Of a stretch of 64,000 nucleotides of DNA, positions 2,599 through 13,786 are shown one piece after another. Source of the stretch: an uncultured beta proteobacterium (lineage in GTDB: Bacteria > Pseudomonadota > Gammaproteobacteria > Burkholderiales > Burkholderiaceae_E); the NCBI GenBank assembly GCA_903934295.1, contig CAIZNI010000056.1:62001-126000 (forward strand), read 5' to 3'. Every line of letters starts with the position of its first letter. Position 1 is the first letter of the stretch. The notes under the pieces were generated by a model. It had not been told where the DNA came from, did not search any database, and saw only the letters and a program-made list of their open reading frames with translations. The position numbers and the translations under genes were made by a program.

Positions 2599-3306
2599 TC
2601 AGCAGCCCAACTGGCTGGCGAGATCGGGAAGGTCGGTGGCGTGGAAATCGAAGGCGGGTTCGCGGCTGATGTCGACCGGGCGGCTGGCGCCGAACTCGAG
2701 TGCGCGGGTGATGAAGGCCGAGCGCAGGCCGCAGGCGGCCGCGGCGTGGAGATCTTCCTTGTGGGCGGCCACCAGCATGACCTGATCCGGTGGGAGATCA
2801 AAGATGCCGGCCACCCCGAGATAAGTCTCGGGGTCGGGCTTGTAGTGATGAAACACCTCGGCCGACAGGATCAGGTCCCAGGGCAGCCCGGCGCGCTTGG
2901 CCATGTTGGTCAGCAGGCCCAGATTGCCGTTGGACAGGGTGCAGATGGTGTAGCGGCTCTTGAGACGCCGCAGGCCTTCCAGGGTGTCGGGCCAGGGGTC
3001 GAGCCGATGCCAGACCTTGTTCAGGTGGTCGATCTCGCCGGCCGACAGGTGCGTGATGCCATATCGGGCCAGCACGCTGTCCAGGATCAGCCGGTGCAGG
3101 TCGTCGATGCGGGTCCAGCCGAGCTCGCCGCTGCGCACCCGTTCCATCGCCGGCAGGTAGCCGGCCCGCCAGGCGATCGCGAAGCGCTCGCCCGACACGC
3201 CCAGGCGCATCGCGTCGACCTCGCGCGCGATGGATCCGTGCCAGTCGACCACCGTGCCGAACACATCGAAGGCCAGCACTTTCACTTCATCGGGGGACAC
3301 GCTCAT
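2599..3306 (-). CDS. haloacid dehalogenase, type II (HAD superfamily)
   Basis: A 235-residue HAD hydrolase. Motif I is VLAFDVFGTVVDWHGS with the nucleophile at Asp14. Motif II is the SNGNLGLL segment, and motif III is the HHYKPDPETYLG region followed by the acidic end of the core domain. The FDVFGTVVDW variant and the length match L-2-haloacid dehalogenases, which hydrolyse 2-halocarboxylates to 2-hydroxyacids in the cytoplasm. However, many members annotated this way act on other substrates. It is 7 bp downstream of the Bug receptor gene and 12 bp upstream of the GGT-like gene. Confidence 0.85.
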   Translation of the reverse strand: MSVSPDEVKVLAFDVFGTVVDWHGSIAREVDAMRLGVSGERFAIAWRAGYLPAMERVRSGELGWTRIDDLHRLILDSVLARYGITHLSAGEIDHLNKVWHRLDPWPDTLEGLRRLKSRYTICTLSNGNLGLLTNMAKRAGLPWDLILSAEVFHHYKPDPETYLGVAGIFDLPPDQVMLVAAHKEDLHAAAACGLRSAFITRALEFGASRPVDISREPAFDFHATDLPDLASQLGC

Positions 3307-3313
3307 CGTCGAC

Positions 3314-4348
3314 TCATTCCGGTTTGATGCTGGCGCGCTTGATCACCGCCTTCCAGCTTTCATGCTCGTCGCGGTAGACGCGGGCGAACTGCTCGGGCGT
3401 ACCGCCGGCGGCCTGGGCGCCGGCGCGCTCGAGCCGCTCGAGGACCTCGGGCGAGCGAGTGACGGCGTTCAACTCGCGATTCAGGCGTGCGATCAGTTCG
3501 GGCGGGGTGCCAGCCGGGGCAAACATGCCGAACCAGTTGCTGTATTCCATGCCGGAAATGCCCGCTTCGGTGAAGGTCGGCACGCCGGGCAGCGAGGTCG
3601 ACCGGGCAGCGCCGCTGACCGCCAGTGGGCGCACCTTGCCATCGCGGATGTGGGGCTGCGCCGAGACGATGCTGTCCATCAGGAAGGCGATCTGACCGCT
3701 CACCAGATCGGTGATCACCAGACCGGTTCCGCGATACGGGATGTGCACCACGAACAGTCCGCCGGCGCGCCACTTGAACATTTCGGCGGACAGGTGCGGA
3801 TAGGTGCCAATGCCGGAGGAGCCGAAGTTGTAGCGCCCCGGGTTGCTGCGCAGCAGCTTGACCAGTTCCTGGACGGTGCGCGCCGGAAAGCTGGCGCCCA
3901 CCACCAGCACGCTGGGCGCATCGGCGATGTGCGTGATCGGCGCGAAGTCGCGGAAGGCGTCGTAGGGCATCTTCGGATTGAGCGCCGGTCCGATCGAGTG
4001 CGTCGAACTGGTGCCCATCAGCAGCGTGTAACCGTCGGGGGCTGCCTTGGCGACCGTGTCGGCACCGATCGTGCCGCCGGCGCCCGGCCGGTTTTCGATG
4101 ACGACCTGCTGGCCCAGGCTGGTGCCCAGTTTCAGGGCGATGGTGCGTCCGATGATGTCGGTCGCGCCACCGGCCGGAAAGGGGATGACCAGACGGACCG
4201 GCCGGGTCGGCCACGACTGCGTGCGTCCCGGCAGGGCGGTGCCGGCGCCGGCGGCCAGCGCCAGGCTTTTCAGGACCCGGCGGCGGCCGGGCGAGTCCGC
4301 AGTGGCGGACGATTCGGGTCGGGGGCTGAGGGCGGTGTCGGCAGGCAT
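3314..4348 (-). CDS. Bug-type (TctC) periplasmic substrate-binding protein
   Basis: A 344-residue periplasmic binding protein. After a twin-arginine-like export signal (RRRVLKSLALAAGAG) comes the Bug signature WPTRPVRLVIPFPAGGATDIIGR. The body then has VVIENRPGAGGTIGAD and APDGYTLLMGTSSTHS, the two segments that surround the carboxylate-binding cleft. The ATG at 4348 is chosen because the longer frame would need a TTG codon and lacks a signal-like start. It lies downstream of tctB-tctA but is separated from them by an intrinsic terminator, so it may be expressed differently from the membrane subunits. The ligand is probably a di- or tricarboxylate or aromatic acid; it cannot be named. Confidence 0.9.
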   Translation of the reverse strand: MPADTALSPRPESSATADSPGRRRVLKSLALAAGAGTALPGRTQSWPTRPVRLVIPFPAGGATDIIGRTIALKLGTSLGQQVVIENRPGAGGTIGADTVAKAAPDGYTLLMGTSSTHSIGPALNPKMPYDAFRDFAPITHIADAPSVLVVGASFPARTVQELVKLLRSNPGRYNFGSSGIGTYPHLSAEMFKWRAGGLFVVHIPYRGTGLVITDLVSGQIAFLMDSIVSAQPHIRDGKVRPLAVSGAARSTSLPGVPTFTEAGISGMEYSNWFGMFAPAGTPPELIARLNRELNAVTRSPEVLERLERAGAQAAGGTPEQFARVYRDEHESWKAVIKRASIKPE

Positions 4349-4440
4349 GGCGGCGAGTCTAGCAAAGGAGCAAGGTTCGGATCGCCGCAAGCAAGCCTCA
4401 GCAGGCCAGGCCCACGGCAGCAGCCCCGCAAGCCGTCCTC

Positions 4441-4470
4441 AAAACAACAGACCCGCCGAAGCGGGTCTGT
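4441..4470 (-). terminator. intrinsic terminator after tctA
   Basis: A perfect 10-bp inverted repeat (arms 4447-4456 and 4461-4470) closes on a tetraloop that reads UUCG in the minus-strand transcript, with a C-G closing pair. In that direction it is followed by a TGTTTT tract at 4446-4441. It sits 40 bp beyond the tctA stop codon and before the Bug gene, so it would end or attenuate the tctBA transcript. Confidence 0.75.
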
Positions 4471-4509
4471 GGGTCGGACGGGCGCGCGAGCGTCGGCGCG
4501 CGGCCGGGA

Positions 4510-6021
4510 TCAGTCGTCGCCGGTGAACGCCTCTTGGCGTTTTTTGGCGACCGCGGGCAGGAACACGATGATCAGCATGATCACCGCGACGGCCAGCAGC
4601 GAGGCCGACAGCGGACGGGTCAGGAAGACCATCCAGTCGCCGCGCGAAATCGTCATGGCGCGCCGCAGGTACTCCTCCATCAGCTTACCCAGCACGAAGC
4701 CCAGGAGCAGCGGTGCGGGTTCGCACTCCAGCTTCTTGAACACATAGCCCAGGATCGCGAACGGGATCGTCATGAACACGTCGAACACATTGTTGTTCAG
4801 CGAGTAGGCGCCGATGCAGCAGAACAGCAGGATCGCCGGGAACAGCACCCGGTAAGGCACGGTCAGCAGCTTGATCCAGATGCCGATCAGCGGCAGGTTC
4901 AGGATCACCAGCATGAAGTTGCCGATCCACATCGAGACGATCAGGCCCCAGAACAGATTGGGGTTGCTGGTCATCACCTGGGGGCCAGGCTGGATGTTGT
5001 GGATCATCATCGCCGCGACCATCAGTGCGAGCACCGGGGTGGTCGGGATGCCCAGGGTGAGCATCGGGATGAACGAGGTCTGCGCGCCGGCGTTGTTGGC
5101 GGCCTCGGGGCCCGCCACCCCTTCGATGGCACCTTTGCCAAATTCTTCAGGGTGCTTGGAGAGCTTCTTCTCCATCGCGTAGGTCGAGAACGACGCGAGC
5201 ACCGCGCCGCCGCCGGGCAGGATGCCCAGGATCGAGCCCAGCGTGGTGCCGCGCAGGATCGGCAGGATCGAGCGCTTGAACTCGGGCATGGTGGGCAGCA
5301 GTCTGCCGACCTTGCTGGTGAAGACCTCGCGGTTTTCACGCTGCTCGAGGTTCAGGATGATCTCGGCAAAGCCGAACATGCCCATCGCGACCACCGCGAA
5401 CTCGATGCCGTCGGACAACTCCGGCACATCGAACGAGAAGCGAGCCACGCCGGAGTTCACATCGGTGCCGATCATGCCCAGCAGCAGGCCCAGCACCACC
5501 ATCGCGAGCGCTTTCCAGATCGAACCGTTGGCCAGCACCACCGCGGCGATCAGGCCCAGCACCATCAGCGAGAAATACTCGGCCGGGCCGAACTTGAAGG
5601 CGACTTCGGCCAGGGGCGGTGCGAAGGCGGCAATCAGGAAGGTGGCGACCGTGCCGGCGAAGAACGACCCGAGCGCGGCAATCGACAGGGCCGCGCCGGC
5701 CCTGCCACGTCGCGCCATCTGGTAGCCGTCAAGGGTGGTGACCACCGATGAGGACTCGCCCGGCAGGTTGACCAGGATGGCGGTGGTCGATCCGCCGTAC
5801 TGGGCGCCGTAGTAGATGCCCGCCAGCATGATGAGCGCCGAGGTCGGGTCGGTCATCTTGTAGGTGGCCGGCAGCAGCATGGCGATCGTGGCCAGCGGGC
5901 CGATGCCCGGCAGCACGCCGATCAGGGTGCCCAGAAGGACCCCGACGAAGCAGTAGAAGAGGTTGTCGAGGGTCCCGGCGGTGGCGAAGCCGAGTGCAAG
6001 ATTGGTGAAGAGTTGGTCCAT
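4510..6021 (-). CDS. tctA: tripartite tricarboxylate transporter, large membrane subunit TctA
   Basis: A 503-residue polytopic inner-membrane protein with about twelve hydrophobic segments. It has the TctA signatures GVLPGIGPLATIAMLLPATY near the N-terminus and YGGSTTAILVNLPGESSSVV about 60 residues later. The internal duplicate ILPGGGAVLASFSTY appears near residue 265. It forms the transport channel with TctB and receives cargo from a periplasmic Bug protein, using the ion gradient. It lies 23 bp downstream of tctB. This is the only TctAB pair in the window, although six Bug receptor genes are present. Confidence 0.95.
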   Translation of the reverse strand: MDQLFTNLALGFATAGTLDNLFYCFVGVLLGTLIGVLPGIGPLATIAMLLPATYKMTDPTSALIMLAGIYYGAQYGGSTTAILVNLPGESSSVVTTLDGYQMARRGRAGAALSIAALGSFFAGTVATFLIAAFAPPLAEVAFKFGPAEYFSLMVLGLIAAVVLANGSIWKALAMVVLGLLLGMIGTDVNSGVARFSFDVPELSDGIEFAVVAMGMFGFAEIILNLEQRENREVFTSKVGRLLPTMPEFKRSILPILRGTTLGSILGILPGGGAVLASFSTYAMEKKLSKHPEEFGKGAIEGVAGPEAANNAGAQTSFIPMLTLGIPTTPVLALMVAAMMIHNIQPGPQVMTSNPNLFWGLIVSMWIGNFMLVILNLPLIGIWIKLLTVPYRVLFPAILLFCCIGAYSLNNNVFDVFMTIPFAILGYVFKKLECEPAPLLLGFVLGKLMEEYLRRAMTISRGDWMVFLTRPLSASLLAVAVIMLIIVFLPAVAKKRQEAFTGDD

Positions 6022-10217: not shown

Positions 10218-10742
10218 TCAGCCGGCGCTGATCGAGCGCAGGATCTGGTCGACTGCCGCGTCGGCGAGCGCGCGCAACTCGTCATTCGTGCGGTCCTGGA
10301 TCGGATGGGGCACGAACACCATGGCCGGGTCGAAGCCCAGCGATTGCGACTGCGCAGCAGCCGCCTGAACGAACTCGGTTGACGCAACCCCGACTCCCGG
10401 AATGCCGCGACCTTCGAGACCCGCGATGTCATGCATACAGCACGACGTGCAGGAACCTCAGTCGGCCAGCCCTTCGATGACGAGCTGGCACTCGGCGGCG
10501 ATCTGCTGGGCCAGCGCGGTCGGAGCCGGCCGGGTGAAGGTGGGCTTGCGATAGCGTTTGACGGCGATGCCGCGCGCGCTGAGCAGTTCATCGACACGGT
10601 CCAGGAACACGTTGCCGCGTGCCTTGGAGATGTCGAGAATGCCCACCGTCAGCCCGTCCAGGCTGGCCGGGCGGGCCAGGCGGGCTCGCGCCGCCGGGGC
10701 CCGCTCGGCCGTCGGGTCGAGGAGGAGGGAAGGATCGGTCAT
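10218..10742 (-). CDS. UGSC-family selenoprotein (in-frame UGA as selenocysteine)
   Basis: Read with the TGA at 10458-10460 as selenocysteine, this is one 174-residue protein. It has a 94-residue N-terminal half (LDGLTVGILDISKARGNVFL, later VIEGLAD), then U95-G-S-C-T-S-C-C, then MHDIAGLEGRGIPGVG and a C-terminal half with VFVPHPIQDRTNDEL. Read conventionally, the frame breaks into two orphan pieces. The UGSC motif is the signature of a selenoprotein family whose cysteine forms read CGSC; its biochemical role is not established, but a redox site is implied. The ATG overlaps the stop of the thioredoxin-fold gene by 4 bp. A SECIS-like hairpin follows the UGA, and selA, selB and tRNA-Sec follow downstream. 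Confidence 0.9.
10428..10446 (-). promoter_or_regulatory. putative bacterial SECIS hairpin
   Basis: On the minus strand, 11 nt after the UGA codon, GTCGTG (10446-10441) pairs over 6 bp, including one G-U, with CATGAC (10433-10428) around the loop CTGTATG. If the C-G at the loop base also pairs, the apical loop is TGTAT, with G at its second position. That agrees with the known bacterial pattern: a short stem whose loop begins about 16-37 nt after UGA with a G among its first two bases. The hairpin lies inside the coding sequence, as required in bacteria. Confidence 0.65.
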
Positions 10743-12187
10743 GCGGTGATCTCCTGGGTGACGGGGGTGGAGCCGACGGCGCCGGAGGCGGCCCAGCCGG
10801 CGACCACTGCCGAGAAAAGGCCGGCGGTGCCGCCGGCCCGGACGATGAGGATGCCGCCGGGGCGGAACTTGGGGACCCGGGTGCCGGCCACCGAGGCCGG
10901 CAGGCCTTCGGTGATGCCGCCGGCGCCGGTCACCAGCTCGTCGCCGGGCAGCTGCAACAGCTCGACCAGCTCGGCGAGCAGACGCGCCTTGGACCACCCG
11001 GCTTCCAGGAAGACGCGGGCGTGCTCCGGCGAGACGATGAGCAGCGCGTCGCCCGCCATCGCGAGCTTCGGGTGGTCGATCACCCGCATGCAGGCGGCGA
11101 AGCTGCGCGCCAGCGATTCCGGCGTGCGCGACTTCTGGTCGACGATGCCCTGGACGCCTTCGCCGGCGAACAGGGTGACGGTGGAGACGCCGGGCGCGAA
11201 GCCGCGCTCGACCGACAGGGGCGCCCAGTCGCTGTCCTCGGCCTCGGCGAAGCAGAAGGTGTACTTGCCCGGCGTGCCCAGCGCCGAGCGGTCGATCTCG
11301 CCCGGGCGTCCGCCGCCCACATTGCGGATCACCAGCTGCAGCGCGCGGCCGATGCTGGCGTTGGCCCGGTTGCCCTGGCCGAGGGCGTTGGTGCCCGAGT
11401 TCATCCCGATGGCACGGGTGACCGGACCGTTGGCGATGATGACCGGGCCGCAGAACATGGTGGTGCACAGGATGCCGTGCATGCCGAACTCGTCGATCAG
11501 GGCGGCCTCGACCGCGGCCAGCACCACCGGCATGTACTCGGGCTTGCAGCCCGCCATGACGGCATTGATCGCAACCTTCTCGACGGTGCACGGCGCCAGG
11601 TCGGGCGGGATCATGCCGATGATTTCATCGGGCGCACGCGGGGTGCCCGAGAGCATGCGCAGCACCCGCTCGCGGGTGGGCGGGGTGACCGGCAGACCGT
11701 CGGTCCAGCCGCGCTCGAAGCAGGCTTCCGCCGGGTCTTCGGCGCTGCCGATCTCGATCGTGCGCGACTGGAAGCGGGCCTTGCCGAAGCGCACCGCGAG
11801 GGTTTCGGCGACGCCCGGGTCGAGCGTCATCGAGCCGCATCCGGGCCGCACTTCCGGCAGACCGGCGCCCAGGCCGGCGATGCCGCTGATGCGCTGCCAG
11901 TCGGCGCGATGCCAGCCGTAGGTGCGCTCGACCTCGCGTCCGCCTTCCACCCGGATCAGGGTCGGGACGATCTCGACCGACATCCGGTACGAGTGCTCCA
12001 GGCTGGTGTCGTGCACGCTGCCGGGCAGCCCGGCGCCATAGCGCGGGTCATCCTGGCTGTAGACGGTGAGGGTGCCGGCTTCGCGGGCGATCTGCGCGAG
12101 CAGCGGTTCGACCAGCACGCAGGTCGGGCACTCCTGCTTGGCGATGACGATCAGGCCGTCGGGCAGGGGGCGATCGGTGGCTTGCAT
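10739..12187 (-). CDS. thioredoxin-fold protein fused to a large UGSC-associated domain
   Basis: A 482-residue protein in two parts. Residues 1-105 look like a thioredoxin fold with the redox pair C20-P-T-C23 (IAKQECPTCVLVEPLL) and the cis-proline region SVEIVPTLIRVEGG. Residues 105-482 form a domain I cannot assign to a named enzyme. Conserved-looking patches there are FERGWTDGLPVTPPTRERV, AINAVMAGCKPEYMPVVLAA and GMHGILCTTMFCGPVIIANG. Cysteines are clustered in CTTMFC and AGC. The stop overlaps the selenoprotein start (ATGA), so the two are probably made together and may exchange electrons. No signal peptide is visible. Confidence 0.75.
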   Translation of the reverse strand: MQATDRPLPDGLIVIAKQECPTCVLVEPLLAQIAREAGTLTVYSQDDPRYGAGLPGSVHDTSLEHSYRMSVEIVPTLIRVEGGREVERTYGWHRADWQRISGIAGLGAGLPEVRPGCGSMTLDPGVAETLAVRFGKARFQSRTIEIGSAEDPAEACFERGWTDGLPVTPPTRERVLRMLSGTPRAPDEIIGMIPPDLAPCTVEKVAINAVMAGCKPEYMPVVLAAVEAALIDEFGMHGILCTTMFCGPVIIANGPVTRAIGMNSGTNALGQGNRANASIGRALQLVIRNVGGGRPGEIDRSALGTPGKYTFCFAEAEDSDWAPLSVERGFAPGVSTVTLFAGEGVQGIVDQKSRTPESLARSFAACMRVIDHPKLAMAGDALLIVSPEHARVFLEAGWSKARLLAELVELLQLPGDELVTGAGGITEGLPASVAGTRVPKFRPGGILIVRAGGTAGLFSAVVAGWAASGAVGSTPVTQEITA

Positions 12188-12372: not shown

Positions 12373-13620
12373 TCAGGCCGGGTCGGCGGTCGGTGCGTTC
12401 GCCCCGGTGTGCCCGCCGGCGGCGGCGATCTGCGCGGCCGAGTACCCGAGCAGCTCGCCGAGTACCGCGTCGGTGTGCTCGCCCAGGCGCGGCGGCGGCA
12501 GGCCGTAGCGCACCGGGGTGGCCGACATCCGGATCGGGCTGCCCACCAGCGGCACCGGTCCGCTGTCCTCGCGTTCCAGGTCGATGCGCAGCCCGCGCGC
12601 CTGCACCTGCGGATTTTGGAAGACCTGCGCCAGGTCGTTGATCGGCCCGCACGGCACGCCGGCGGCCTCGAGGTTCTCGATCCACTGCTGCTGGGTGCGC
12701 CCGGCCACCACCGTGGCCATCAGCGGAATCAGCTGGTCGCGGTTGCGGATCCGGTCCTGCACCCGCAGAAAGCGCGGATCGGTGAACAGTTCCAGGCACG
12801 CGCCCGCCTCGCAGAAACGGCGGAACTGGTCGTTGTTGCCGACCGCGATGATCACCCAGCCGTCGCTCGCCTTGAAGGTCTGGTACGGCACGAGGTTCGG
12901 ATGCGCGTTGCCCCAGCGGCGCGGCGCCTTGCCGCTGATGAGGTAGTTGGTGTTCATGTTGGCCATCATCGCGACCTGGACATCGAGCAGCGCCATGTCG
13001 ATGTACTGACCTTCGCCGCTGCGCTCGCGGTGGAACAGCGCCGCCAGCACCGCCTGCGTGGCGTACATGCCGGTCATCAGGTCGACCACCGCGACGCCGA
13101 CTTTCTGGGGCCCGCCGCCGGGCTGGTCATCGGCTTCGCCGGTTACCGACATCATCCCGCCCATGCCCTGAATGATGAAGTCGTAGCCGGCGCGGTGCGC
13201 ATAGGGCCCGGTCTGCCCGAATCCGGTGACCGAGCAGTAGACCAGCCGCGGGTTGACCGCCTTCAGGCTCTCGTAGTCGAGCCCGTATTTCTTCAGCTGG
13301 CCGACCTTGTAGTTCTCGAGCACCACGTCGCTGACCAGGGCCAGCTCCCGCACCGCCTGCTGGCCGGCCGGGGTGGCGATGTCGAGCAGGATCGACTTCT
13401 TGCCGCGGTTGGCGGCGAGGTAGTAGGCGGCGTCGGTGGTGTCGTGGCCCTCCCGGTCCTTCAGGAACGGCGGACCCCAGGTCCGGGTGTCATCGCCCGC
13501 GCCGGGGCGTTCGACCTTGATCACTTCGGCACCGAGGTCGGCAAGGTTCTGCGCGCACCAGGGGCCGGCCAGCACACGGGTCAGATCGAGGACCCGGATC
13601 GAATCGAGAGCGGTTGTCAT
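12373..13620 (-). CDS. CaiB/BaiF (class III) CoA-transferase
   Basis: A 415-residue family III CoA-transferase, which moves CoA between carboxylic acids through enzyme-bound anhydrides. The start MTTALDSIRVLDLTRVLAGPW is followed by the typical LADLGAEVIKVERPGAGDD, then NRGKKSILLDIATPAGQ, and GQTGPYAHRAGYDFI. The ATG at 13620 is preferred to an upstream in-frame codon because the family start is right there. It is the first gene of the minus-strand group that leads into the thioredoxin-fold and selenoprotein genes, with a 185-bp gap that could hold its own promoter. It is divergent from alaS. The acid substrate is unknown. Confidence 0.9.
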   Translation of the reverse strand: MTTALDSIRVLDLTRVLAGPWCAQNLADLGAEVIKVERPGAGDDTRTWGPPFLKDREGHDTTDAAYYLAANRGKKSILLDIATPAGQQAVRELALVSDVVLENYKVGQLKKYGLDYESLKAVNPRLVYCSVTGFGQTGPYAHRAGYDFIIQGMGGMMSVTGEADDQPGGGPQKVGVAVVDLMTGMYATQAVLAALFHRERSGEGQYIDMALLDVQVAMMANMNTNYLISGKAPRRWGNAHPNLVPYQTFKASDGWVIIAVGNNDQFRRFCEAGACLELFTDPRFLRVQDRIRNRDQLIPLMATVVAGRTQQQWIENLEAAGVPCGPINDLAQVFQNPQVQARGLRIDLEREDSGPVPLVGSPIRMSATPVRYGLPPPRLGEHTDAVLGELLGYSAAQIAAAGGHTGANAPTADPA

Positions 13621-13786
13621 GGACCGGACGTTACCCGATCCGACGCTGCGCTTCGAGGCCGGGCGTTCCGATGCAGGCGTTGCAGCGCGCTGGCCGGCGG
13701 CGTTTTTTTGGCCCTGCGGGCCGGCGTGGGGCAGGGTGTTTCGGTAGAATCGCATTCTCCTGATAAATCAATGAGTTCCACTCCAA

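Follow-up and report, generated by a model that had tools for sequence, protein, structure and literature searches.

Which reaction might a selenoprotein of the UGSC family carry out, and with which other protein would it do so? The question is raised by a gene on a stretch of 64,000 nucleotides (nt) from an uncultured beta proteobacterium (contig CAIZNI010000056.1, positions 62,001 to 126,000), referred to below as the window. Its minus strand encodes, at 10218-10742, a UGSC selenoprotein of 174 residues plus stop, recognized by reading the frame and by matches to the profiles NF041046 and PF24696. An earlier note on this DNA had singled out the gene itself, but the two-gene unit that it forms with the upstream open reading frame (ORF) at 10739-12187, not mentioned there, is more informative. 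UGSC is proposed here to be a selenocysteine (Sec) protein forming a two-component redox enzyme with the protein encoded upstream, a reading given a probability of roughly 0.6. The elements for which sequence comparison argues are Sec95 together with C98 in UGSC, the linked partner gene, a thioredoxin domain with a CPTC motif in the partner, and the Cys/Sec117 of the partner.

The UGSC gene and its selenocysteine codon

The earlier note had described, without naming a strand, a single 174-codon frame broken only by the TGA at 10458-10460. The frame was recovered on the minus strand, where 10742-10221, with TGA read as Sec, yields 174 residues (MTDPS...VIEGLAD-U-GSCTSCCMHDIAGL...ISAG); a terminal TGA stop follows at 10218-10220, and 10458-10460, within the motif GLAD-U-GSCTSCC, is the sole internal TGA. 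The protein similarity claimed to run across this codon is also found, since the matches to NF041046 (residues 29-170, E 4.9e-45) and PF24696 (151 bits, residues 7-171, E 4.6e-44) both span it. The former model, named 'UGSC family (seleno)protein', is matched at 153.2 bits, above its curated cut-off of 125, and the Sec/Cys position of its [U/C]GSC motif is occupied, as membership requires. The window gene is a new member of an already published family (UGSC selenoproteins, UAG forms included), which, as the note had said and as passages of a 2026 review agree (PMC13188914), is known by its motif and not by its reaction. The expectation that annotation would report fragments or a pseudogene holds in part: conventional ORF calling does stop at the TGA, but NCBI has a model of this name, so current annotation need not miss the gene.

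That calling terminates at 10458-10460 would suit a sequencing error or a pseudogene. The codon was also compared in relatives. The UGSC profile, run over loci L001-L106, gave 107 matches once the second halves of L051 and L093 were removed, and 104 distinct genes once duplicates were removed (L054 equals L018, L001 equals L023 and L026 equals L002). Position 95 is TGA in 99 of these genes, TAG in two and TGC in two, while one gene is truncated. Within the host's taxonomic family, UGSC matches occur in 16 of 74 genomes at 22 places, 21 with one TGA and one (L016) with cysteine; outside it the family is sparse: of 275 genomes from the class, 3 match PF24696. The alignment with cysteine homologues that the note had proposed thus finds TGC at the Sec95 position (L016), and the results it had named as damaging, homologues ending at this codon or no aligned cysteine, were not seen, as homologues continue past the codon. 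A second UGSC gene of the host genome (G000:C56:240923-241417), 64% identical, also contains one internal TGA. Across seven genomes searched, every one of 49 UGSC matches has one in-frame stop (TGA in 47, TAG in 2), as given by the search output rather than located match by match. Moreover, 16 diverse UGSC members all have Sec/Cys95 and Cys98.

The two TAG genes (L051 and L093) belong to the genera Blastococcus and Geodermatophilus. The best tRNA-Sec match in each of these genomes, at 64-65 bits to RF01852, has the anticodon CTA, a statement that covers the best match and leaves aside one further match per genome at 48 bits. Sec codon and tRNA-Sec anticodon therefore agree in both recoded genomes, and both UGSC matches of the Geodermatophilus genome contain one TAG. 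Passages of PMC5330540 have already reported UAG-Sec in Geodermatophilaceae, with UGSC proteins among the examples. The tRNA-Sec(CUA) genes of Geodermatophilus and Blastococcus (L117, L118) are called tRNA-Pyl by ARAGORN.

A hairpin starting 11 nt past the TGA, with a G in its apical loop, had been noticed earlier and is confirmed by folding and comparison. It resembles a selenocysteine insertion sequence (SECIS), lies at 10428-10446 (minus strand) with an 11-nt spacer after the TGA, and has GU in the apical loop; the stem GTCGTGC/GCATGAC (10446-10440 with 10434-10428) consists of seven pairs, one of them G-U, instead of six base pairs, and encloses the loop TGTAT. The comparison covered 86 distinct sequences, four distant UGSC genes (L016, L024, L025 and the second copy in L086) having been dropped. 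The loop GU is invariant in all 86, and the Ser/Cys codon forming it is AGT in 59 and TGT in 27, which is beyond chance: among the partner genes at these loci, AGT accounts for 6.6% of the 2356 Ser codons, and TGT for 23.4% of the 735 Cys codons. Of the cells in the hairpin columns, 92.6% form pairs, a share that falls to 7-53% with the 3' partners slid by 1-3 columns; shuffling the 3' letters among sequences still gives 91.0%, because the columns hardly vary, and none of 500 shuffles was as high as 92.6%. The hairpin core is included in the 45-nt minimum-energy fold of 80 of the 86 sequences, and both cysteine (TGC) genes are without it. Taken with the TGA retained in relatives and in the second host copy, the conserved hairpin leaves a negligible chance for error or decay, and the idea of a read-through artefact or pseudogene was rejected. 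On codon and hairpin comparison, Sec at position 95 of UGSC is regarded as almost certain.

The thioredoxin-DGLPV protein encoded upstream

The gene immediately upstream (10739-12187, minus strand) encodes P0004, a protein of 482 residues whose stop codon overlaps the UGSC start in the sequence ATGA. Among 84,980 species genomes scanned, at least 553 relatives were recovered, of which the best 80 loci were kept. UGSC was found in 79 of these. In 74 it follows the partner on the same strand at a distance of no more than 300 nt (median gap 29 nt), in three it is farther away and in two it lies on the opposite strand; at the one remaining locus the contig stops 180 nt past the partner. The neighbouring genes occur in a wide range of bacterial groups, and records of the culture-collection strains Halopseudomonas pachastrellae JCM 12285 (L031) and Geodermatophilus obscurus DSM 43162 (L093) also contain the pair. 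In the distant locus L024 the order is reversed, UGSC preceding the partner, while in L025 the partner domain is spanned by a single frame continuing from the TGA of UGSC. Across the phylum few genomes have a partner gene (5 of 397, at E 1e-20). When UGSC and DGLPV genes are set aside, the commonest ORF cluster near the 80 loci occurs in 15, many flanks being short. Frame reading and adjacency counts make it very probable that the UGSC and partner proteins work together.

Searched against Pfam and NCBIfam, P0004 gave nothing at E 1e-3, and laxer limits gave weak matches that include a weak thioredoxin signal. Its N-terminus is nevertheless thioredoxin-like: a profile search of the PDB found thioredoxin chains (best E 8.8e-4, positions 11-88), and Foldseek matched the same part of the AlphaFold2 model (best E 1.8e-3), in which the whole partner has a mean predicted local distance difference test (pLDDT) score of 89.1. 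The thioredoxin domain occupies approximately residues 8-100 (11888-12166, minus strand) and carries the motif CPTC (codons 12119-12130). Unlike thioredoxin, which it resembles over residues ~11-88 and in the presence of CPTC, the partner has a fused domain of about 365 residues belonging to an unnamed family. This domain, approximately residues 150-480 in profile comparisons (10748-11740, minus strand), is called DGLPV here, a name coined in this analysis after the signature WTDGLPVxPPT. Between the two domains lies Cys117 (codon TGC, 11837-11839, minus strand; motif RPGCGS). Cys20, Cys23 and Cys117 are invariant in the 47 partners of alignment A4, a set that does not include L074 (TGA), L103, L100 and some further loci among the 80.

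Two identities proposed for the DGLPV domain were set aside. A PF07355-like or UGSC-like domain was rejected, the profile comparison giving no signal, and class I fumarase, with Foldseek probabilities of 0.4-0.7 but template modelling (TM) scores of about 0.2, was not relied on. Passages of the Global Ocean Sampling (GOS) paper describe UGSC fused to a domain termed 'Unknown_1' (PMC2398784), which may be the DGLPV domain. The partner family was not recognised in the available text of the selenoprotein table of the 2026 review (PMC13188914), and the linkage of UGSC to a thioredoxin fused to a family without a model looks new.

The codon of Cys117 was read in all 106 partner-profile matches in L001-L106 and is TGC in 84, TGT in 16, TGA in two and other or gap in four. 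In the two TGA genes (L074 and L100), the only TGA of the aligned partner frame falls at Cys117 (RPG[U]GS or VPG[U]GS). Both belong to one bacterial family, all of whose 74 genomes have DGLPV genes, and so they are not independent of a family-level count. Among the matches listed for that family, 43 reach the thioredoxin part, one of them beginning at position 82; 38 have one TGA, and one of the 38 also a TAA. TGA lies exactly at Cys117 in 25 of 31 of these loci examined, cysteine in five, and L269 is ambiguous. An element of 21 nt, starting 13 nt past the partner TGA, was compared in 23 Sec genes: 21 have it in identical form and two with one base changed, while none of the five Cys genes has it; the codons ahead of it vary in the Sec genes, and those at positions 13 and 14 after it are nearly invariant as well. 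L263 and L266, two additional Sec genes, show a paired position altered on both sides, from G-C to A-U. The 48 nt past the partner TGA fold no more stably than mononucleotide shuffles (z 0.3 in L074, 0.05 in L100), and over 27 nt the energies are -10.0 and -9.6 kcal/mol, compared with an average of -5.4 (standard deviation 2.8) in 100 Cys partner genes, some of which are equally low. Folding energy alone is no proof; what makes the partner of this family a probable selenoprotein, with TGA replacing Cys117, is that the 21-nt element is conserved. This second Sec site looks new. One in-frame TGA is also given for a DGLPV paralogue that lacks the thioredoxin domain (G728:C155:11491-12489).

Fold, copy number and the proposed chemistry

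The AlphaFold2 model of UGSC, built from 55 sequences with Sec as Cys, has a mean pLDDT of 90.4 and five strands alternating with helices, Sec95 being placed between the strand 87-93 and the helix 96-111. In Foldseek the best matches are to SsuE, to TIR domains and to flavodoxins (E 9.5e-5), and a PDB sequence search gave a single chain at E 0.52. A thioredoxin fold, attributed to UGSC in passages of the GOS paper (PMC2398784), was not supported, as both the model and the top Foldseek rows are flavodoxin-like alpha/beta. The window gene is like the UGSC selenoproteins already published (NF041046/PF24696; PMC2398784) in scoring above the model's cut-off, in its UGSC motif and in its SECIS-like hairpin, and differs from the published account in this flavodoxin-like model.

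A further likeness concerns glycine/proline reductase B (PF07355), matched in 31 of 74 genomes of the host's family; in some of these matches the (C/U)-x-x-C site carries a TGA. When UGSC (103 rows) was compared by hhalign with the UxxC domain of these PF07355-like proteins (17 rows), a probability of 87 was obtained (P 3.9e-6, score 42, 85 columns), with the Sec of UGSC aligned on Cys or Sec, while the best of 56 control families reached P 0.019 and score 20. UGSC thus seems to resemble remotely the UxxC domain of glycine/proline reductase-like proteins, a likeness that looks new. With GrdB/PrdB it would share a U-x-x-C that aligns on the (C/U)-x-x-C, and it differs from them in having a thioredoxin-DGLPV partner; the compared set consisted of PF07355-like proteins of the host's family, not of clostridial GrdB/PrdB. 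As UGSC has no direct match to PF07355, it is not assigned to that family, although it may work like it.

By analogy, the following scheme may be drawn. Electrons would pass from the thiol pool of the cell to the CPTC of the partner's thioredoxin domain, then to Cys/Sec117 of the partner and on to the U-x-x-C (U95-C98) of UGSC. The DGLPV domain would bind a small carboxylate or its coenzyme A (CoA) ester, possibly taken up through TctC-type receptors, and the UGSC selenol would attack the bound substrate and cleave a carbon-heteroatom bond reductively, as the UxxC subunit of D-proline/glycine reductase does. Thioredoxin-fed, selenol-dependent redox chemistry is judged likely; carbon-heteroatom cleavage like that of proline reductase is put forward tentatively. 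The placement of Sec95 after strand 3 of the alpha/beta model would also suit a racemase, a lyase or a decarboxylase-like enzyme that depends on Sec as its nucleophile or base, without net redox change, and UGSC may bear some likeness to Asp/Glu racemases. Such an enzyme appears quite improbable, because the invariance of Sec/Cys95 and Cys98 in diverse members and the thioredoxin domain of the partner favour redox cycling.

Copy number bears on a further alternative. The genome G728, a metagenome-assembled genome of 5.2 Mb from which L100 comes, has 29 UGSC matches, each with one TGA, and 30 DGLPV matches; a mixed assembly is possible behind this number, and the largest bacterial selenoproteomes given in passages of the 2026 review hold 57 and 63 selenoprotein genes (PMC13188914). 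Under that alternative, UGSC would be a Sec-dependent thiol peroxidase, or a disulfide or sulfoxide reductase, that protects or reactivates its partner without carbon-heteroatom chemistry, which would agree with the UxxC motif, with the thioredoxin domain of the partner and with the expectation, in passages of the same review, of redox roles for most uncharacterised selenoproteins. The flavodoxin-like model speaks against it, thioredoxin and peroxiredoxin being absent among the 50 Foldseek matches listed, and so many copies in one genome suit substrate diversification better than repair; the alternative is considered unlikely.

Several observations weigh against the proposed two-component redox enzyme and its chemistry. 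The substrate and the reaction are inferred. At the hairpin, the outermost stem pair fails in 20 of the 86 sequences, and covariation is weak, as the stem hardly varies: two cells changed on both sides, a number matched by 13 of 500 shuffles, and further pair types were matched by 126 of 500. An in-frame UGA followed by a hairpin like the bacterial SECIS, the feature of bacterial selenoprotein genes, is present except in the distant TGA genes L024 and L025, which have neither hairpin nor GU loop at the corresponding place. The 80 loci being the best-scoring, the adjacency count holds for the closest relatives of the partner. The TM-scores of the UGSC model in Foldseek are mostly below 0.5. The link to PF07355 comes from one profile comparison in which template diversity is low (number of effective sequences, Neff, 2.5); a first, narrower comparison was weak (probability 4.7, P 0.0086), and 13 UGSC members searched against PF07355 gave nothing up to E 10 with HMMER, a program that filters out most weak matches. 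Even the PF07355-like proteins match chiefly the C-terminal part of PF07355, at 19-39 bits, and as the 56 controls were not picked for flavodoxin-like folds, a shared fold without common ancestry is possible. No likeness was seen between the DGLPV profile and the PF07355-like proteins, UGSC or the 56 control families (best P 0.027), and a pyruvoyl-type partner was not recognised, DGLPV matching no known family in a search that did not compare PrdA/GrdE sequences. Many DGLPV paralogues are without the thioredoxin domain and Cys117, so the thiol relay cannot be general. Finally, TctC genes are abundant in these genomes (141 of 833 candidates scored).

Genomic setting and significance

The claim that selA, selB and tRNA-Sec stand next on the UGSC strand proved correct: selA lies at 10187-8736 (TIGR00474, 554 bits), selB at 8739-6787 (TIGR00475, 374 bits), and tRNA-Sec, with anticodon TCA by tRNA search, at 6733-6639, all on the minus strand. 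The gene selD is located outside the window (L236, G000:C23:27056-27976; 295 bits), and the host genome thereby contains selA, selB, tRNA-Sec and selD; this selD sits within an open frame of 786 codons and may therefore be part of a fusion protein. These comparisons support the interpretation of the earlier note: the gene belongs to the UGSC family, its Sec codon is conserved, and the Sec machinery adjoins it. The host genome also has a PF07355-like frame (G000:C47, ~147,200; L240, frames 3298-4479 and 4483-5223) with TGA at ...LLAPV[U]PLCTRAVS..., probably a second selenoprotein type, and relatives of the host (L157-L160) have similar frames with TGA at PV[U]PNC.

The surroundings include a CoA-transferase family III gene upstream (12373-13755, minus strand; PF02515) and a TctC-type periplasmic carboxylate receptor gene downstream (3314-4390, minus strand; PF03401 match at G000:C56:65332-66150, i.e. 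window 3332-4150), which are compatible with an action on a carboxylate or CoA ester and are not proof of it. In G728, counted over 20 stretches covering 21 of the 29 UGSC matches, a TctC gene lies within 2.5 kb of UGSC in 17 of 21, and TctC genes make up 31 of 82 ORFs within that distance against 19 of 101 farther away (Fisher p 0.005). A role of TctC proteins as specific UGSC partners was not upheld, the enrichment over the rest of the stretches being about two-fold, and since TctC genes are so common the association is just a hint at carboxylate substrates.

According to passages of the GOS survey, UGSC ranks within the top five prokaryotic selenoprotein families there by number, with 255 Sec sequences (PMC2398784). 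The linked thioredoxin partner, the second Sec site and the likeness to glycine/proline reductase together provide a concrete, testable hypothesis for the UGSC reaction. Read jointly and with some reserve, they might describe an unrecognised family of two-component selenoenzymes, glycine/proline reductase-like reductive carbon-heteroatom lyases with an electron donor of their own, whose partner would be an undescribed selenoprotein family (RPG[U]GS). The pair would have multiplied in some Betaproteobacteria, to approximately 29 copies in a single assembled genome, and each copy might have a different carboxylate as its substrate.
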